From assembly GCF_016743795.2 (NCBI RefSeq), contig NZ_CP060138.2, forward strand, positions 248,001 through 312,000: a DNA stretch of 64,000 bases. The letters are read 5' to 3'. Each line of letters begins with the position of its first letter. The stretch's first letter is position 1. The notes beneath the pieces were generated by a model. That model saw only the letters and a list, made by a program, of their open reading frames with translations. It was not told the DNA's origin and ran no database searches. Position numbers and translations under genes: made by a program. Shown here one piece after another: positions 940 to 62,617 of the stretch. Source of the stretch: Rickettsia tillamookensis. GTDB taxonomy: Bacteria; Pseudomonadota; Alphaproteobacteria; Rickettsiales; Rickettsiaceae.

Positions 940-2091
940 ATGGCTAATGATTTAAGTATTTATATTCATTGGCCGTTTTGTTTGTCAAAATGTCCATATT
1001 GTGATTTTAATTCTCATGTGGTAAGTACTATAGATCATCATCAGTGGCTTAAATCCTATGAAACGGAAATTGAGTATTTTAGGGATATTATTCAAAATAA
1101 ATATATAAAATCCATTTTTTTTGGCGGCGGTACTCCCTCTTTAATGAATCCTGTAGTCGTTGCAGGAATAATAAATAAAATCAGTAATCTAGCAATTATT
1201 GATAATAAAACCGAGATAACTCTAGAAACTAATCCCACATCCTTTGAAACTGAGAAGTTTAAAGCATTCAAATCCGCCGGAATTAATCGTGTTTCAATTG
1301 GAATACAATCCTTAAAAGAAGACGATTTAAAAAAATTAGGCAGAACTCATGATTGTATGCAGGCCATTAAAACAATTGAGGCGGCAAATACAATTTTTCC
1401 ACGCGTGTCATTTGATTTAATATATGCACGTAGCGGTCAGAAATTAAAACAGTGGCAAGAAGAATTAAAGCAAGCTATGCAGCTCGCAAATGGCCATATC
1501 TCTCTTTATCAATTGACTATTGAAAAAGGTACACCTTTTTATAAATTATTTAAGGAGGGTAATCTGATTTTGCCGCATTCAGATGCGGCAGCTGAAATGT
1601 ACGAATGGACGAATCATTATCTAGAATCTAAAAAATATTTTAGATATGAGATATCTAATTATGCTCTAGCAAATCAGGAATGTTTGCATAATTTGACTTA
1701 TTGGAATTATAATAATTATTTAGGTATAGGTCCCGGAGCTCATAGTAGAATAATTGATACTTCAAATTCAGTATCGGCAATTATGATGTGGCATAAACCT
1801 GAAAAATGGTTAGACTCGATTAACACAAAAAATGTTGGTATTCAAACTAATACTAAGTTAACAAATAAAGAAATCATTGAAGAAATACTAATGATGGGTT
1901 TACGTCTTAGCAAAGGCATAAATATTGCCACATTAGAGAAGAAAATAAACGCAAAATTAGTGGATATTTTAGACATGAATAACCTGCAGCATTATCAAAG
2001 CCAAGACTTAATTAAATTAGATAAAAATATCTATCTTACCGATAAAGGTTTAATGCTACATAGCTACATAGTCCCTAGGCTGATTATATGA
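940..2091 (+). CDS. hemW: HemW-type radical SAM protein (coproporphyrinogen oxidase-like)
   Basis: Radical SAM family protein. A CxxxCxxC cluster (CLSKCPYC) near the start binds the 4Fe-4S cluster, followed by the glycine-rich FFGGGTPS SAM motif. The HNLTYW motif in the C-terminal half is the HemW signature; that subfamily is regarded as a haem chaperone rather than the true oxygen-independent coproporphyrinogen III oxidase HemN. The frame is open from an ATG at 889, but the family normally begins just before IYIHWPFC, so I prefer the ATG at 940 (about 383 aa, close to the E. coli length); 931 is also possible. The stop overlaps the start of the next gene by 4 bp (ATGA), implying translational coupling. 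Confidence 0.88.
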   Translation: MANDLSIYIHWPFCLSKCPYCDFNSHVVSTIDHHQWLKSYETEIEYFRDIIQNKYIKSIFFGGGTPSLMNPVVVAGIINKISNLAIIDNKTEITLETNPTSFETEKFKAFKSAGINRVSIGIQSLKEDDLKKLGRTHDCMQAIKTIEAANTIFPRVSFDLIYARSGQKLKQWQEELKQAMQLANGHISLYQLTIEKGTPFYKLFKEGNLILPHSDAAAEMYEWTNHYLESKKYFRYEISNYALANQECLHNLTYWNYNNYLGIGPGAHSRIIDTSNSVSAIMMWHKPEKWLDSINTKNVGIQTNTKLTNKEIIEEILMMGLRLSKGINIATLEKKINAKLVDILDMNNLQHYQSQDLIKLDKNIYLTDKGLMLHSYIVPRLII

Positions 2092-2891
2092 AAATTATTC
2101 AAGTAATTTTAAAGTTTATAATTATTTTTATTATTCCTTCTATTCATGCTATGGAATGTAAACTTGAGTTTAAGACTGAAAAGATATATGTGAATGGTGC
2201 CACGTATGATCAAAAAGTCGGAACTCCAATTACACCGATAGCAGATGCTATTAAAGCAGATAATATTGATGAAGTAAAAAAAATATTAGACGAGGGGTAC
2301 GGAGTAAATCAACCATGCTTGGGTTGGACTCCTCTAGATTATGCTATATCGAATAATAATATAAAAATTGCCGATTTTTTATTAAAGCGTGGTGCATCCA
2401 TGAGTTTAATCCATATAAATATAGGATTTATGAAGTCGGAAATTGCTGAATTTTTAATTAATCAGGGAATGAGTCCTAATTTAAGATATGAAAACGGTAT
2501 TACCGGAATGATGCTAGCCGCAGAAAGAAATAATCCTGATTTAATAAAACTTTTGCTTAAACTAGGTGTTAATCCTAACGTTCAAAATTCTAAAACCGGG
2601 ATGACTTCCCTTATGTATGCAGCATCATATCTTAATGTTGAACCTGTTCGTATTTTATTAGAATATGGAGCAGATCAAAAAATTAAAGATTTTAAAGGAA
2701 AAAGAGCTTTGGATTGGATAGCAGTGGATGCTAATAGAAATTTGCATGCTTCTGATGCAGAATATTATACTGCTTTATTTCTTGCTCCATTTAAAACTAA
2801 ACTGAAAATTATAAAAGAAAGAAATAGCATTAAGACAAGAAATAAAGAAAAGGAAAAAGAAATAAAAAAGCTTCTCAATTCTCACCACTAA
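2088..2891 (+). CDS. Secreted ankyrin-repeat protein
   Basis: 267-aa protein with a strong signal peptide (residues 1-21, hydrophobic core after MKIIQVILKF, ending SIHA). From about residue 50 it carries four ankyrin-type repeats, seen as TPLDYAISNNNIKIADFLLKRG, a weaker second unit, GMMLAAERNNPDLIKLLLKLG and SLMYAASYLNVEPVRILLEYG spaced at about 33 residues. The last 35 residues are a highly charged Lys/Glu helix (RNKEKEKEIKK). It overlaps hemW by 4 bp, so it is co-transcribed. Ankyrin proteins of intracellular bacteria often bind host or bacterial proteins. The signal peptide suggests export to the periplasm or beyond; the partner is unknown. Confidence 0.85.
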   Translation: MKIIQVILKFIIIFIIPSIHAMECKLEFKTEKIYVNGATYDQKVGTPITPIADAIKADNIDEVKKILDEGYGVNQPCLGWTPLDYAISNNNIKIADFLLKRGASMSLIHINIGFMKSEIAEFLINQGMSPNLRYENGITGMMLAAERNNPDLIKLLLKLGVNPNVQNSKTGMTSLMYAASYLNVEPVRILLEYGADQKIKDFKGKRALDWIAVDANRNLHASDAEYYTALFLAPFKTKLKIIKERNSIKTRNKEKEKEIKKLLNSHH

Positions 2892-2958
2892 ATTTTGGTA
2901 GTGTTTCTATTTATATTTTACAAGTTAGGATAAAAATCTATTCTAAATTTTTATGGCG

Positions 2959-3112
2959 TTGTTGCATGGCTCAGAAAACCTGCTGAGTGTCATACCGTGG
3001 CTTGTCCACGGTATCCAGTAAAACAACTAAAAATACTAATATTATTAGTATTTTTAACTGGATCCCGTGAATAAATCACGGGATGACAACAAAAAAACCG
3101 AGCCATGCAACA
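2959..3112. repeat. Palindromic element, family A, full-length nested form
   Basis: The outer arms TTGTTGCATGGCTC (from 2959) and GAGCCATGCAACAA (to 3112) are perfect inverted repeats. They enclose an inner hairpin pair built on CCGTGGCTTGTCCACGG and CCCGTGAATAAATCACGGG, separated by an AT loop with its own small palindrome (AATACTAATATTATTAGTATT). It lies between the ankyrin gene and the convergent oxygenase gene, where it could act as a bidirectional terminator. Confidence 0.85.
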
Positions 3113-3117
3113 AAGCT

Positions 3118-3213
3118 GCAGTCGTAGTACTTGCGTAGCAATCTCATGAAATAATAACAAACTCCTGAGATTGCAGACGTACAATTGCTATACAATTTCC
3201 TCGCAATGACGAC
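3118..3213. repeat. Palindromic element, family C, left arm decayed
   Basis: The right two thirds (GCAATCTCATG ... CTCGCAATGACG) match the element at 5162-5265 nearly base for base and in the same orientation. The left arm is degraded and merges with the family A element just before it. From here to 3292 I see only scraps of the same repeats. Confidence 0.8.
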
Positions 3214-3292
3214 TTTCAGTATCCACGCAACAATGCCTGAACGCAATGACGTTTTTACGTGATTTGCATAAAACCGTCTGGTATTATGGTTA

Positions 3293-4246
3293 CTATACCC
3301 ATATCCAAGGTTGAGCAGAATTTGCTAATATACCTTGCTTTATATCTTTCACTGAATATATTCTAATAAAATAACGGTCTTTTCCATCCCATTTAGGACT
3401 ATAGCTATCTCTTTTATGTAAAACCGTTTTATTGCTTAATACAATAATATCACCGGAAGTAACATATATATAGTTTTGAATAGATTTTTGATCTACGATT
3501 TCTCTAATTTTATTTAAAAACCCTGCTGCTCTTGGTGTTTCAGGAATAGCATTCATTTTTATTCTGCTATAATAGCCGGTAGCGTGTTCTATTAATAAAG
3601 GAAGATTCTTGCTCACTATTTTACATGAAAAAGAATCTGCACTTGTTACTGTAAATTCATTACTACACCCGATTAAGATATCTTGGTAGCTCAATTGATT
3701 TAATATATCTTTAAGGCTAATATATACTATAGGTAGATTCTCATGTCCTTTATGTACAATCCCAAAAATTAAATAGTCAACTATAGGAGATAAGTTATCA
3801 CTCTTCTCTGTCATTGGACGGTATGCAGCATCTACATGCCAATCTAAATCATTATACGGCGATTGAGAGCTACGTTCATTATGAGAATTACGTTTTGGTG
3901 CTACTGCTCTAATAATATTCTTATCCTCATCTTTATATAATACAGGAAAACTACCAATTATCCCTATTACTCCATACATATGATAAATTAGCTCTTCTAT
4001 TTCGCTAACCCGTACCTCACCGTCATAGGGAGTCATTATATTATAATTTTTTTGATCGATATTTTTTATATGTATAATTTCTGCATTATTATTTACAGCA
4101 TCTTTAATTTCTTTTGTATAATTTACATATTTTGTTTCTAAAAAATTTTTTAAAAATACAGTAGATTTATATGGATTTTTAGTAAAATTGTTTAAAGCCT
4201 CATCGTTATTAATATTAAAATTTTTTAGATAAATTTCCTTTCTCAT
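3293..4246 (-). CDS. Clavaminate synthase-like Fe(II)/2-oxoglutarate oxygenase
   Basis: 317-aa protein resembling the TauD/clavaminate synthase-like superfamily, which hydroxylates or otherwise oxidises small substrates using Fe(II), O2 and 2-oxoglutarate. The metal motif is HVD (H137, D139) inside DLDWHVDAAY, the arrangement of asparagine oxygenases and clavaminate synthase. The distal histidine is H277 in VLHKRD, and R291 or R295 in DRYFIRIY is the probable 2-oxoglutarate-binding arginine, so the catalytic set looks complete. It lies 18 bp downstream of the CmcI-like gene on the same strand and is probably co-transcribed. There is no signal peptide, so it is cytoplasmic. The substrate is unknown; amino-acid beta-hydroxylation is one possibility by family analogy. 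Confidence 0.78.
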   Translation of the reverse strand: MRKEIYLKNFNINNDEALNNFTKNPYKSTVFLKNFLETKYVNYTKEIKDAVNNNAEIIHIKNIDQKNYNIMTPYDGEVRVSEIEELIYHMYGVIGIIGSFPVLYKDEDKNIIRAVAPKRNSHNERSSQSPYNDLDWHVDAAYRPMTEKSDNLSPIVDYLIFGIVHKGHENLPIVYISLKDILNQLSYQDILIGCSNEFTVTSADSFSCKIVSKNLPLLIEHATGYYSRIKMNAIPETPRAAGFLNKIREIVDQKSIQNYIYVTSGDIIVLSNKTVLHKRDSYSPKWDGKDRYFIRIYSVKDIKQGILANSAQPWIWV

Positions 4247-4264
4247 AATACACAGTCATTATCT

Positions 4265-5011
4265 TTAAATCTTTTTTATGACTGAGTTCCAATTTTTAGA
4301 AGCATTAATAATACCGAAAGGATCTACATATTTTGTATCTACTAAATATAAATCTTTTTTTTCTTTCAACCAGGTAGTTAATCTAACGATTTTATTGTTT
4401 AAATTTTCTAATTTTGCTATACAAGTTTTTTCATCTAAAGTTTTTCTCCAAACATCATAGCAAGCATTATTATAGTCAATATTAGTATCTTCAATGATGA
4501 AATAATCCCCTTCTTCAAAGATATTATTATGAAAATATTCTAAAATACCTATAGTATTAATATGAGCATCTTCTATTAATAGTATAGGATGCACTATTTC
4601 GGATATTTTTTCTTTTGAGAATATAGCCTCTACTTTATTAGAATCGCCTTGTAAAAATTCTATTCTATTATCCCCTTTTACGGTTTGATCAATATTTTCA
4701 AAATCAATATCTATACTAATAACTTTACCGTCTTTTACTGATAAACTTTGTATATCCGCCAACCAGAGGGCGGAAGCTCCTTTAAAGCTTCCAAATTCAA
4801 TTATGGTTTTGGGTTTTAATTCTTGAATTAAACCTTGAGTAGTAACAATCTGAAAAGGACTTTTTTGTAATGGTATATTTTTCCAATTAATATCACAGCT
4901 ATTTTCAGCGATAGAATGCCAAAACGATTCAGGTAAATCGCTTGCCGGAATTCTATTATTTATAGATACAAATCTTTTTGATGATGCAGTATTATTTAGG
5001 AAATTTAACAT
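4265..5011 (-). CDS. CmcI / cephalosporin hydroxylase-family methyltransferase-fold protein
   Basis: 248-aa class I SAM methyltransferase fold. Motif I is EFGSFKGASALW (residues about 72-83), followed by the acidic SIDID (99-103), LLIEDAH (144-150) and YFIIEDTN (160-167). This spacing and the paired IEDxH/IEDT acidic motifs fit the CmcI/RhmB family, described from cephamycin biosynthesis and from rhamnosyl O-methyltransferases. A GAGG ribosome site precedes the ATG. It is the first gene of a two-gene unit with the oxygenase. CmcI-family members bind Mg2+ and SAM, and the real reaction is usually O-methylation. The acceptor is unknown. Confidence 0.75.
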   Translation of the reverse strand: MLNFLNNTASSKRFVSINNRIPASDLPESFWHSIAENSCDINWKNIPLQKSPFQIVTTQGLIQELKPKTIIEFGSFKGASALWLADIQSLSVKDGKVISIDIDFENIDQTVKGDNRIEFLQGDSNKVEAIFSKEKISEIVHPILLIEDAHINTIGILEYFHNNIFEEGDYFIIEDTNIDYNNACYDVWRKTLDEKTCIAKLENLNNKIVRLTTWLKEKKDLYLVDTKYVDPFGIINASKNWNSVIKKI

Positions 5012-5161
5012 ATATCCTCAACTTTAAGTTAATATAGCTATTGTAATACACGCTATGAATTCCAAAGTCAATAGCTTTTTAAATTAAAAGTTGAAAATAA
5101 GAAAAGAAATTTGAGCATTATCATCCTGCAAACTTGTAGGCGTTGTTGTATGGATATCAAA

Positions 5162-5265
5162 TCGTCATTGCGAGCGACCGTAGGGAGCGTGGCAATCTCA
5201 TGAAATAATAACAAACTCCTGAGATTGCTTCGTCAATTGCTATGCAATTTCCTCGCAATGACGAT
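5162..5265. repeat. Palindromic element, family C
   Basis: CGTCATTGCGAG at the left and CTCGCAATGACG at the right are terminal inverted repeats, with inner arms GGCAATCTC and GAGATTGC around a loop shared with the element at 3118. The head unit GGCGTTGTTGTATGG precedes it at about 5139. It lies between the CmcI-like gene and gltP. Confidence 0.85.
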
Positions 5266-5282
5266 ATTCGGCCTTAATATAA

Positions 5283-6482
5283 TTAAGATAAATATACTTC
5301 CTTATCTAAAGTATCTTCGCTGTTATCTATAATCATAGTAATTGTTGCATCACCGGTAATATTGATAGTAGTACGTAGCATATCAAGTATTCGGTCAATA
5401 CCGGCAATAATTGCTACTCCCTCTATAGGTAAGTGAACCGAAGAAAGAACCATAGGAAGCATTATTAAAGAAGCACCGGGAATGCCGGCTCCGCCGATAG
5501 ATCCAAGTGTTGAGGTGAGAATAATTACTAGATAGTCGTGAGGAGCAAGCGTTACTCCCATCATTTGAGCAAAGAATATGGTAGTAAGAGACAAATTTAT
5601 AGCAAAGCCATCCATATTAATTGAGGCTCCTATCGGAAGTACGAATGAAGTACTAGACTCTGAAATGCCAAGCTTTTCACGACAAACTTGCATAGTAGTT
5701 GCAAGAGTTGCTTTACTACTTGAAGTAGAAAAAGCAAGTATCTGATATTCAAAACTTTTTTTATAAAAAGGTATAGGGGAAACACGGCAGAATACATATA
5801 TAAGTAAGCCAAAAACTAAATATTGAAATGTCATCGCCACAACTACCGCTACAACAAGTTTCGATAAACTAATCATTACTTCAACTCCCTGCATGCCTAC
5901 AATCCAGCCTGTTAAAGCAAAAGCACCGTAAGGAGATAATTGAATAACAAACGATATCATTTTTAATATTAATTTTGACATTACATGAATTAAATCAGTA
6001 ACAGGTTCACCGACAGATTTCATTTTGTTTAAGGTAATCCCGACAAAAATAGCAAAAAATACAACTTGCAAGACATCACCGTTTGCAAAAGCCCCAACAG
6101 CATTATCAGGGACGATATTTACAAAAAAATCAATTATATTAAATGAAGTTCTACTTGTCGTTCCTGAAGAGGTAAAATCTATATGTATGCCTACTCCCGG
6201 CTTTAATACTAAGGCAACAGTAAGTCCAAAAACCGTGGCAAAAAAAGTAGTACCTAAAAAAGCGGCTACCGCTTTCATTCCTACTCTGCCAAGGGCAGAA
6301 GTATCATTCATACTAGTGATACCGGAAACCAAGCTAAAGAAAATTAAAGGGGTAATGATCATTTTTATCAAGCGTAAGAAAATGTCACCGATAGGTTTAA
6401 TATAATTAACATATTGTGGTAAGTATATACCAAATATAATACCTAAGATTAACCCTAAGGTAACTTTTTGCCATAATTTCAT
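5283..6482 (-). CDS. gltP: Dicarboxylate/glutamate:cation symporter (SDF/DAACS family)
   Basis: 399-aa integral membrane protein that imports glutamate, aspartate or C4-dicarboxylates driven by Na+ or H+. The family signatures are all present: the serine-rich hairpin STSSSKATLATT, the NMDGFAINLS motif on the substrate-binding helix and GSIGGAGIPGASL on hairpin 2. An N-terminal membrane segment starts at about residue 5, and about eight hydrophobic spans follow. Length is normal for the family. It is the last gene of a minus-strand run after queD and cutA (40 bp gap). Such carriers suit an organism that takes amino acids from host cytosol. The exact substrate cannot be read from sequence. Confidence 0.9.
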   Translation of the reverse strand: MKLWQKVTLGLILGIIFGIYLPQYVNYIKPIGDIFLRLIKMIITPLIFFSLVSGITSMNDTSALGRVGMKAVAAFLGTTFFATVFGLTVALVLKPGVGIHIDFTSSGTTSRTSFNIIDFFVNIVPDNAVGAFANGDVLQVVFFAIFVGITLNKMKSVGEPVTDLIHVMSKLILKMISFVIQLSPYGAFALTGWIVGMQGVEVMISLSKLVVAVVVAMTFQYLVFGLLIYVFCRVSPIPFYKKSFEYQILAFSTSSSKATLATTMQVCREKLGISESSTSFVLPIGASINMDGFAINLSLTTIFFAQMMGVTLAPHDYLVIILTSTLGSIGGAGIPGASLIMLPMVLSSVHLPIEGVAIIAGIDRILDMLRTTINITGDATITMIIDNSEDTLDKEVYLS

Positions 6483-59474: not shown

Positions 59475-62240
<2,766 letters not shown>

Positions 62241-62340
62241 GCTGTGAGATTACATATGCATATAGTGTTAATTCTATAAAAATGTAGTATCAACTCACAA
62301 AGTTATCAGGTTAAATTAGCTTTATCGATGAATAAAAATG

Positions 62341-62449
62341 TTGTTGCATGACTAAACTTGTCATTCCTGCGAAAGCAGGAATCCAGATATTATAAATCTT
62401 TCTGGATACCGTGGTCAAGCCACGATATGACATTAACCATGCAGCAACA
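62341..62449. repeat. Chimeric palindromic element in the 23S-5S spacer
   Basis: The left half is a family B arm (GTCATTCCTGCGAAAGCAGG) and the right half is a family A arm (TACCGTGGTCAAGCCACG). Each half is its own hairpin and the join is TCCAGA/TCTGGA. The outer heads TTGTTGCATG (62341) and CATGCAGCAACA (62438-62449) enclose both. Confidence 0.8.
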
Positions 62450-62497
62450 TTAACAGCAAACTATAATACAAATCTGTTTTTTAAAAGTTTGTATTGC

Positions 62498-62617
62498 TAG
62501 CTTGGTGGTTATAGCATGAGTGAAACACACGATCCCATCCCGAACTCGAACGTGAAACCTCATAGTGCTAATGGTACTATGTCATAAGGCATGGGAGAGT
62601 AAGTCGCTGCCAAGCTT
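62498..62617 (+). rRNA. rrf: 5S ribosomal RNA
   Basis: The core CCCGAACTCGAACGTGAAAC and the end stem AGCTTGG/CCAAGCT (62499-62505, 62610-62616) are typical 5S features. The stem extends outward (TTTGTATTGC with GCAATGCAAA), and TTTTTAATTATC follows, which together may act as a processing site and terminator. Confidence 0.94.

Follow-up and report, generated by a model that had tools for sequence, protein, structure and literature searches.

Described methoxylation systems and the Rickettsia gene pair

Among the closest described systems to the gene pair reported here is the 7-alpha-methoxylation of cephamycin C in Streptomyces clavuligerus, performed by CmcI and CmcJ. According to the portion of PMC6097109 that deals with these steps, O2 supplies the oxygen of the methoxy group and methionine its methyl, a hydroxylated intermediate has been isolated, and cmcI and cmcJ are assigned to the two methoxylation steps. 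The pair analysed here lies in a window of 64,000 nucleotides (positions 248,001 to 312,000 of NZ_CP060138.2) within the 1,438,972-base chromosome of Rickettsia tillamookensis (genome G000), and consists of a CmcI-family methyltransferase gene followed by an Fe(II)/2-oxoglutarate oxygenase gene, for which the same logic of hydroxylation and subsequent O-methylation is proposed. The oxygenase is placed in the clavaminate-synthase-like (CSL) group, unlike CmcJ, which belongs to another oxygenase group; this contrast draws on the general classification of CmcJ rather than on a sequence comparison.

In Rickettsia, Table 6 of PMC2635572 (2008) lists 'Clavaminate synthase 1' (RiOG 955) and 'Cephalosporin hydroxylase' (RiOG 819) as separate Rickettsia orthologous groups, the former missing from R. 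canadensis and the typhus group and the latter from the typhus group. By annotation, these are very probably the two genes of the pair. The listing in that paper makes no mention of their pairing or joint function, and it records plain absence, whereas degraded relics were found here in several genomes. Both annotation terms turned up together in the full text of two papers, this one and another concerning Streptomyces. A literature search, with most subscription papers outside its reach, returned no paper treating the pair as a unit. The R. conorii cmcI fragment RC0221 is among the transcripts given as raised in eschars in the relevant part of PMC2577010, and since it is a gene fragment that is raised there, transcription at this locus is no proof of function.

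Protein families and conserved residues

The sequence-only reading had pointed to a CmcI-type gene and an Fe(II)/2-oxoglutarate oxygenase gene lying 18 bp apart on one strand, an observation that was confirmed:

4265..5011, minus strand: CmcI-family S-adenosylmethionine-dependent methyltransferase, 248 amino acids, first gene of the pair
4247..4264, minus strand: 18-bp spacer between the methyltransferase and oxygenase genes
3293..4246, minus strand: clavaminate-synthase-like Fe(II)/2-oxoglutarate oxygenase, 317 amino acids, second gene of the pair

The short gap appears consistent with a single transcript. A promoter search over positions 2880-5300 provided no evidence of promoters: it returned 8 sites, no excess over shuffled sequence, which averaged 13.5.

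The family placements made in that reading hold broadly. The methyltransferase matched Pfam RMNT_CmcI (PF04989) with 76.7 bits, above the gathering score of 23.2, and shares 29% full-length identity with CmcI in alignment A2 (28 of the 59 methyltransferase matches plus the window protein). Residues D148, E174 and D175 were present in all 29 rows of this alignment and align with D160, E186 and D187 of CmcI, which we take to be its metal-site acidic residues; structure entry titles name CmcI D160 together with Mg. The best named model was the NCBIfam rhamnosyl O-methyltransferase (NF045824), at 57.7 bits against a cut-off of 400.

The oxygenase scored 25.3 bits with Pfam TauD (PF02668), under the gathering score of 27, and stayed far under the cut-offs of the GntD, VioC and clavaminate synthase models. 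It is not a clavaminate synthase proper, carrying HxD instead of HxE and reaching 37 bits with NF043003 against a cut-off of 450; VioC and KDO5 also have HxE. A triad of His, Glu/Asp and His is given for CSL oxygenases in the pertinent section of PMC6224419, and the complete triad claimed by the sequence-only reading is indeed unsubstituted: H137, D139 and H277 are kept in 23/23 rows of alignment A1 (22 of the 29 oxygenase matches plus the window protein). R291 and R295, equally invariant in the 23 rows, align with VioC R330 and R334 (numbered by hand) and correspond to the CSL arginines for 2-oxoglutarate and for the substrate carboxylate, respectively. At position P2, for which the same section of PMC6224419 describes a Gln or Glu contacting the alpha-amine, E107 is invariant across the A1 rows, but was aligned one residue beside VioC Q137. 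The predicted structure has the CSL fold (structure comparison VIA-align 2, a re-alignment of Foldseek's top 1000 chains only). This is the fold of the CSL amino-acid hydroxylases VioC, CmnC, KDO1/KDO5, AsnO and OrfP, with which identity is only 13-17% and from which the window oxygenase is set apart by its pairing with a methyltransferase. Taken together, this fold and the invariant arginine for the substrate carboxylate favour amino acids over sugars as substrates.

Some oxygenase homologues differ in length. In-frame inserts that resemble Rickettsia palindromic elements occur in P0002 and in G015 (L164:3657-4724), with about 39 residues each, and in P0007, of 472 amino acids, whose additional residues lie close to its N terminus.

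Conservation of the pairing

The pairing is conserved and recurs outside Rickettsia, once in reversed order. In G187, from another genus of the family, the methyltransferase gene is followed by the start of an oxygenase gene at a contig end, and in G344, an environmental alphaproteobacterial metagenome-assembled genome (MAG) outside the window's order, of which 343 genomes were searched, the oxygenase gene (L064:3370-4332) precedes the methyltransferase gene (L064:4412-5179) on one strand. Moreover, for 11 of the 29 oxygenase clusters of database proteins the longest contig was equal in size to that of a methyltransferase cluster, from which shared metagenome contigs were inferred; one such contig, of 2,244 bp, has room for hardly more than both genes. 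Pairwise distances of the two proteins correlated (r 0.80, 14 pairs, 0/20,000 shuffles; pairs 23569 and 6209 of the 11 were omitted as duplicates of G014 and G344). Much of this correlation reflects Rickettsia versus the rest, so adjacency is the stronger evidence.

Both profiles were also searched across the order. The oxygenase had any match in 18/343 genomes, 14 of them Rickettsia, and in 3/143 and 3/42 genomes of the other order-wide searches, the matches outside Rickettsia being mostly distant. The methyltransferase profile matched 84/343 genomes, with the best score outside Rickettsia and G187 at 76.6 bits, against 397.7 for G187. Distant oxygenase relatives (L151:8587-12918, L152, L149:6371-8665 and L150:387-2788), of which those in L149, L150 and L151 exceed the TauD gathering score, adjoin a LysE exporter and an ABC transporter, or TauE and a 3-hydroxyisobutyrate-dehydrogenase-like gene (in L150 only the oxygenase and TauE were profiled), with no CmcI neighbour at these loci. 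Such neighbours give hints of amino-acid-like substrates. At L066:268-10418, in a Legionellaceae MAG (G343), an oxygenase relative stands divergent from a biosynthetic-looking cluster that comprises Asn_synthase/CarA_N, AMP-binding and thioesterase, ornithine cyclodeaminase, desaturase, Asp/Arg hydroxylase and MATE efflux genes.

Proposed function

The pair may constitute a two-step methoxylation unit for an amino acid or an amino-acid-like metabolite, a reading that we prefer and hold tentatively, at somewhat short of even chances. The CSL-type oxygenase would use Fe(II), 2-oxoglutarate and O2 to hydroxylate a C-H position of the substrate, whose carboxylate would be held by R295, and the CmcI-type enzyme would then methylate the hydroxyl so formed, with S-adenosylmethionine as donor, to yield a methoxy (O-methyl) product. 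Both enzymes probably act in sequence on the same small molecule; this coupling and the order of the steps are suggested by the adjacency of the genes and by the cephamycin precedent, and the substrate class by fold and arginine. The unit for modification of small molecules, sugars or amino acids that the sequence-only reading had envisaged remains the best reading, narrowed to amino acids, with sugars disfavoured.

Several observations weigh against this proposal. Most of the 23 Rickettsia genomes examined have lost the pair or carry it in broken form, and a methyltransferase relic occurs with no oxygenase match in G009, G016 and G019, the last an assembly of 270 contigs. The Legionellaceae genome G343 has the oxygenase without the methyltransferase. 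The structural model is poor around H137 and D139, with block means of 58, 54 and 49 over residues 121-150. In addition, when a single Rickettsia was kept, the distance correlation became weak (r 0.29, 10 pairs, 708/20,000 shuffles).

The lone oxygenase of G343, divergent from a cluster containing Asn_synthase/CarA_N, and the distant relatives beside LysE/ABC transporter or TauE/dehydrogenase genes would also suit one pathway with different sites of action, in which an amino acid is the target of the oxygenase and the methyltransferase acts on another group (a carboxylate, an amine or a different hydroxyl), perhaps in a conjugate whose synthesis involves further enzymes. The neighbours of the pair differ among Rickettsia, G187 and G344, and no further conserved partner gene was seen beside it in these genomes, which makes this arrangement unlikely.

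The production of beta-lactams, rejected as a default, found no support in the HxD motif or in the clavaminate synthase score far under its cut-off, and the genes seen next to the pair included none for beta-lactams (the pathway was not searched genome-wide). Since nothing in the analysis points to beta-lactams, the 2008 annotations as cephalosporin hydroxylase and clavaminate synthase are misleading.

Site, age and decay within Rickettsia

The surroundings of the pair in the window are as follows:

5283..6482, minus strand: gltP-like symporter gene, upstream neighbour and anchor of the conserved site, found in 23/23 Rickettsia genomes
2088..2891, plus strand: ankyrin-repeat protein gene, downstream neighbour and other anchor of the site (Ank_2, E 1.2e-27; synteny)
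5150..5270, plus strand: dispersed-repeat copy upstream of the pair; its own genome has at least 43 matches to it (a lower bound, 40 of 233 candidates having been scored)
3133..3212, plus strand: second, identically oriented copy of this repeat, downstream of the pair, 93% identical to 5187-5264

A single fixed site houses the intact or decayed pair in 14 of 15 genomes belonging to one Rickettsia clade, with hemW-like and ankyrin genes on one side and gltP-cutA-queD-sucB-sucA on the other (hemW-like, gltP, cutA, queD, sucB and sucA, including the name of the upstream symporter, are what we take these genes to be). The site is split across two contigs in G002 and lies at a contig end in G019. 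In G003, G013 and G014 the pair is found at a different place, and the oxygenase tree (built without P0003, P0007, P0024 and P0029) places P0004, which carries the name R. bellii, together with G003 and G013. The two direct repeat copies flanking the pair make a deletion driven by them possible; in G007, which belongs to the same small clade as G000 in the species tree, the pair is absent and a gap of 253 bp, holding a single repeat copy, separates the ankyrin gene from gltP. Elsewhere in the window, 23S and 5S rRNA genes at 59481-62615 on the plus strand account for a G+C peak at 60-62 kb.

In these Rickettsia lineages the age of the pair roughly matches that of its core neighbour gltP, given their similar synonymous divergence (dS). 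For the oxygenase, the methyltransferase and gltP, respectively, dS from G000 was 0.81, 0.88 and 0.82 to G003, 1.04, 1.05 and 0.82 to G014, and 0.26, 0.34 and 0.16 to G015, where the pair reaches about twice the value of gltP, so that the match is only approximate and rough. Of the lateral acquisition that the sequence-only reading had considered, a recent one within Rickettsia was rejected on the basis of the conserved site and the gltP-like dS between clades, to which the higher dS of the pair against G015 and G014 and the other site in G003, G013 and G014 run counter. An older transfer between lineages is likely, as suggested by the methyltransferase of the G344 species (P0046), which is 66% identical to that of the window, against 46% for SucA; the oxygenase, with 49-50% identity, is too close to the SucA value to decide. 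Carriage by phages or viruses was also discarded: no oxygenase relative was confirmed in viral contigs, where distant CmcI-like proteins with 29-44% identity were found at 18 loci.

Of the 23 Rickettsia genomes, 14 had an oxygenase match and 17 a methyltransferase match. Only 4 (G000, G003, G014 and G015, the last with the in-frame insert in its oxygenase) have the two genes at full length, 13 retain pieces or relics of one or both, and 6 (G007, G012, G017, G018, G020 and G021) have no match. On the species tree, which comprises 22 of the 23 genomes and leaves out G013, a hand count requires at least seven separate breakages or losses if there was no regain. It could therefore be argued that the pair of the window genome is intact but unused and heading for loss. 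Its nearest kin are G005, with a broken oxygenase, and G007, with no pair, and P0003, a 42-member cluster with 95% identity to the window oxygenase, is without 58 residues close to the N terminus. Nevertheless, neither window gene has a stop or frameshift, full-length pairs are retained in four separated branches of the species tree, and the ratio of nonsynonymous to synonymous divergence (dN/dS) was below 0.25 in all comparisons involving G000, ranging within Rickettsia from 0.15 to 0.22 for the oxygenase and from 0.06 to 0.16 for the methyltransferase. These values show purifying selection on the pair, and an idle remnant is rather unlikely. A patchy and degraded distribution with no conserved pairing had been named beforehand as what would speak against a functional unit; the distribution proved to be of that kind inside Rickettsia, and the pairing is nonetheless conserved, as seen in the reversed order of G344 and the equal-size longest contigs of 11 of the 29 oxygenase clusters.

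Related methyltransferases in sugar clusters

A separate second CmcI-like methyltransferase occurs in Rickettsiales nucleotide-sugar clusters at L154:2612-11344 and L176:6019-11530, the latter from Rickettsia G019. Both clusters contain WbqC and DegT, and that of L154 also a PhyH oxygenase. These proteins share PF04989 with the window protein, but score 291 and 275 bits against its 76.7 and form their own branch (100/100), apart from the methyltransferases of the pair, in a tree of P0030-P0072 and P0083 with five short sequences left out; long branches make the branching of this tree unsure. An alternative modelled on polysaccharide clusters, in which both enzymes of the pair work on one surface glycan, the methyltransferase by capping a sugar, would accord with these relatives and with the rhamnosyl O-methyltransferase as best named model, but it is quite improbable given the separate branch, the amino-acid hydroxylase fold of the oxygenase and the lack of any sugar gene adjoining the pair in the window, L064 and L178 (the genes that we take to be lpxD, fabZ and lpxA lie in L178).

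Implications for Rickettsia

To our knowledge, the genomes of Rickettsia are reduced and are thought to be without secondary metabolism. The pair is old and also occurs in a small number of other bacteria, although most Rickettsia genomes in the set no longer have it whole. Its conservation with intact catalytic residues suggests that at least four Rickettsia lineages still retain a tailoring step. As far as the parts of the literature considered here go, the locus would represent a case in which a CmcI-type methyltransferase has independently come together with an oxygenase of another family. It is a divergent but recognisable, useful and testable pair, whose chemistry is not of a new kind, and it names free amino acids as the substrate class to test. 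Because decay has recurred at one fixed site, kept and lost copies lend themselves to a natural comparison against host and life style. As an improbable but specific conjecture, the pair might form a self-contained two-enzyme pathway in bacteria that live obligately inside the cells of ticks, insects and probably protists. This pathway would turn a free amino acid supplied by the host into a methoxylated amino acid that serves within the host cell as a signal or antimetabolite, and its repeated loss would have gone along with changes of host in Rickettsia lineages.
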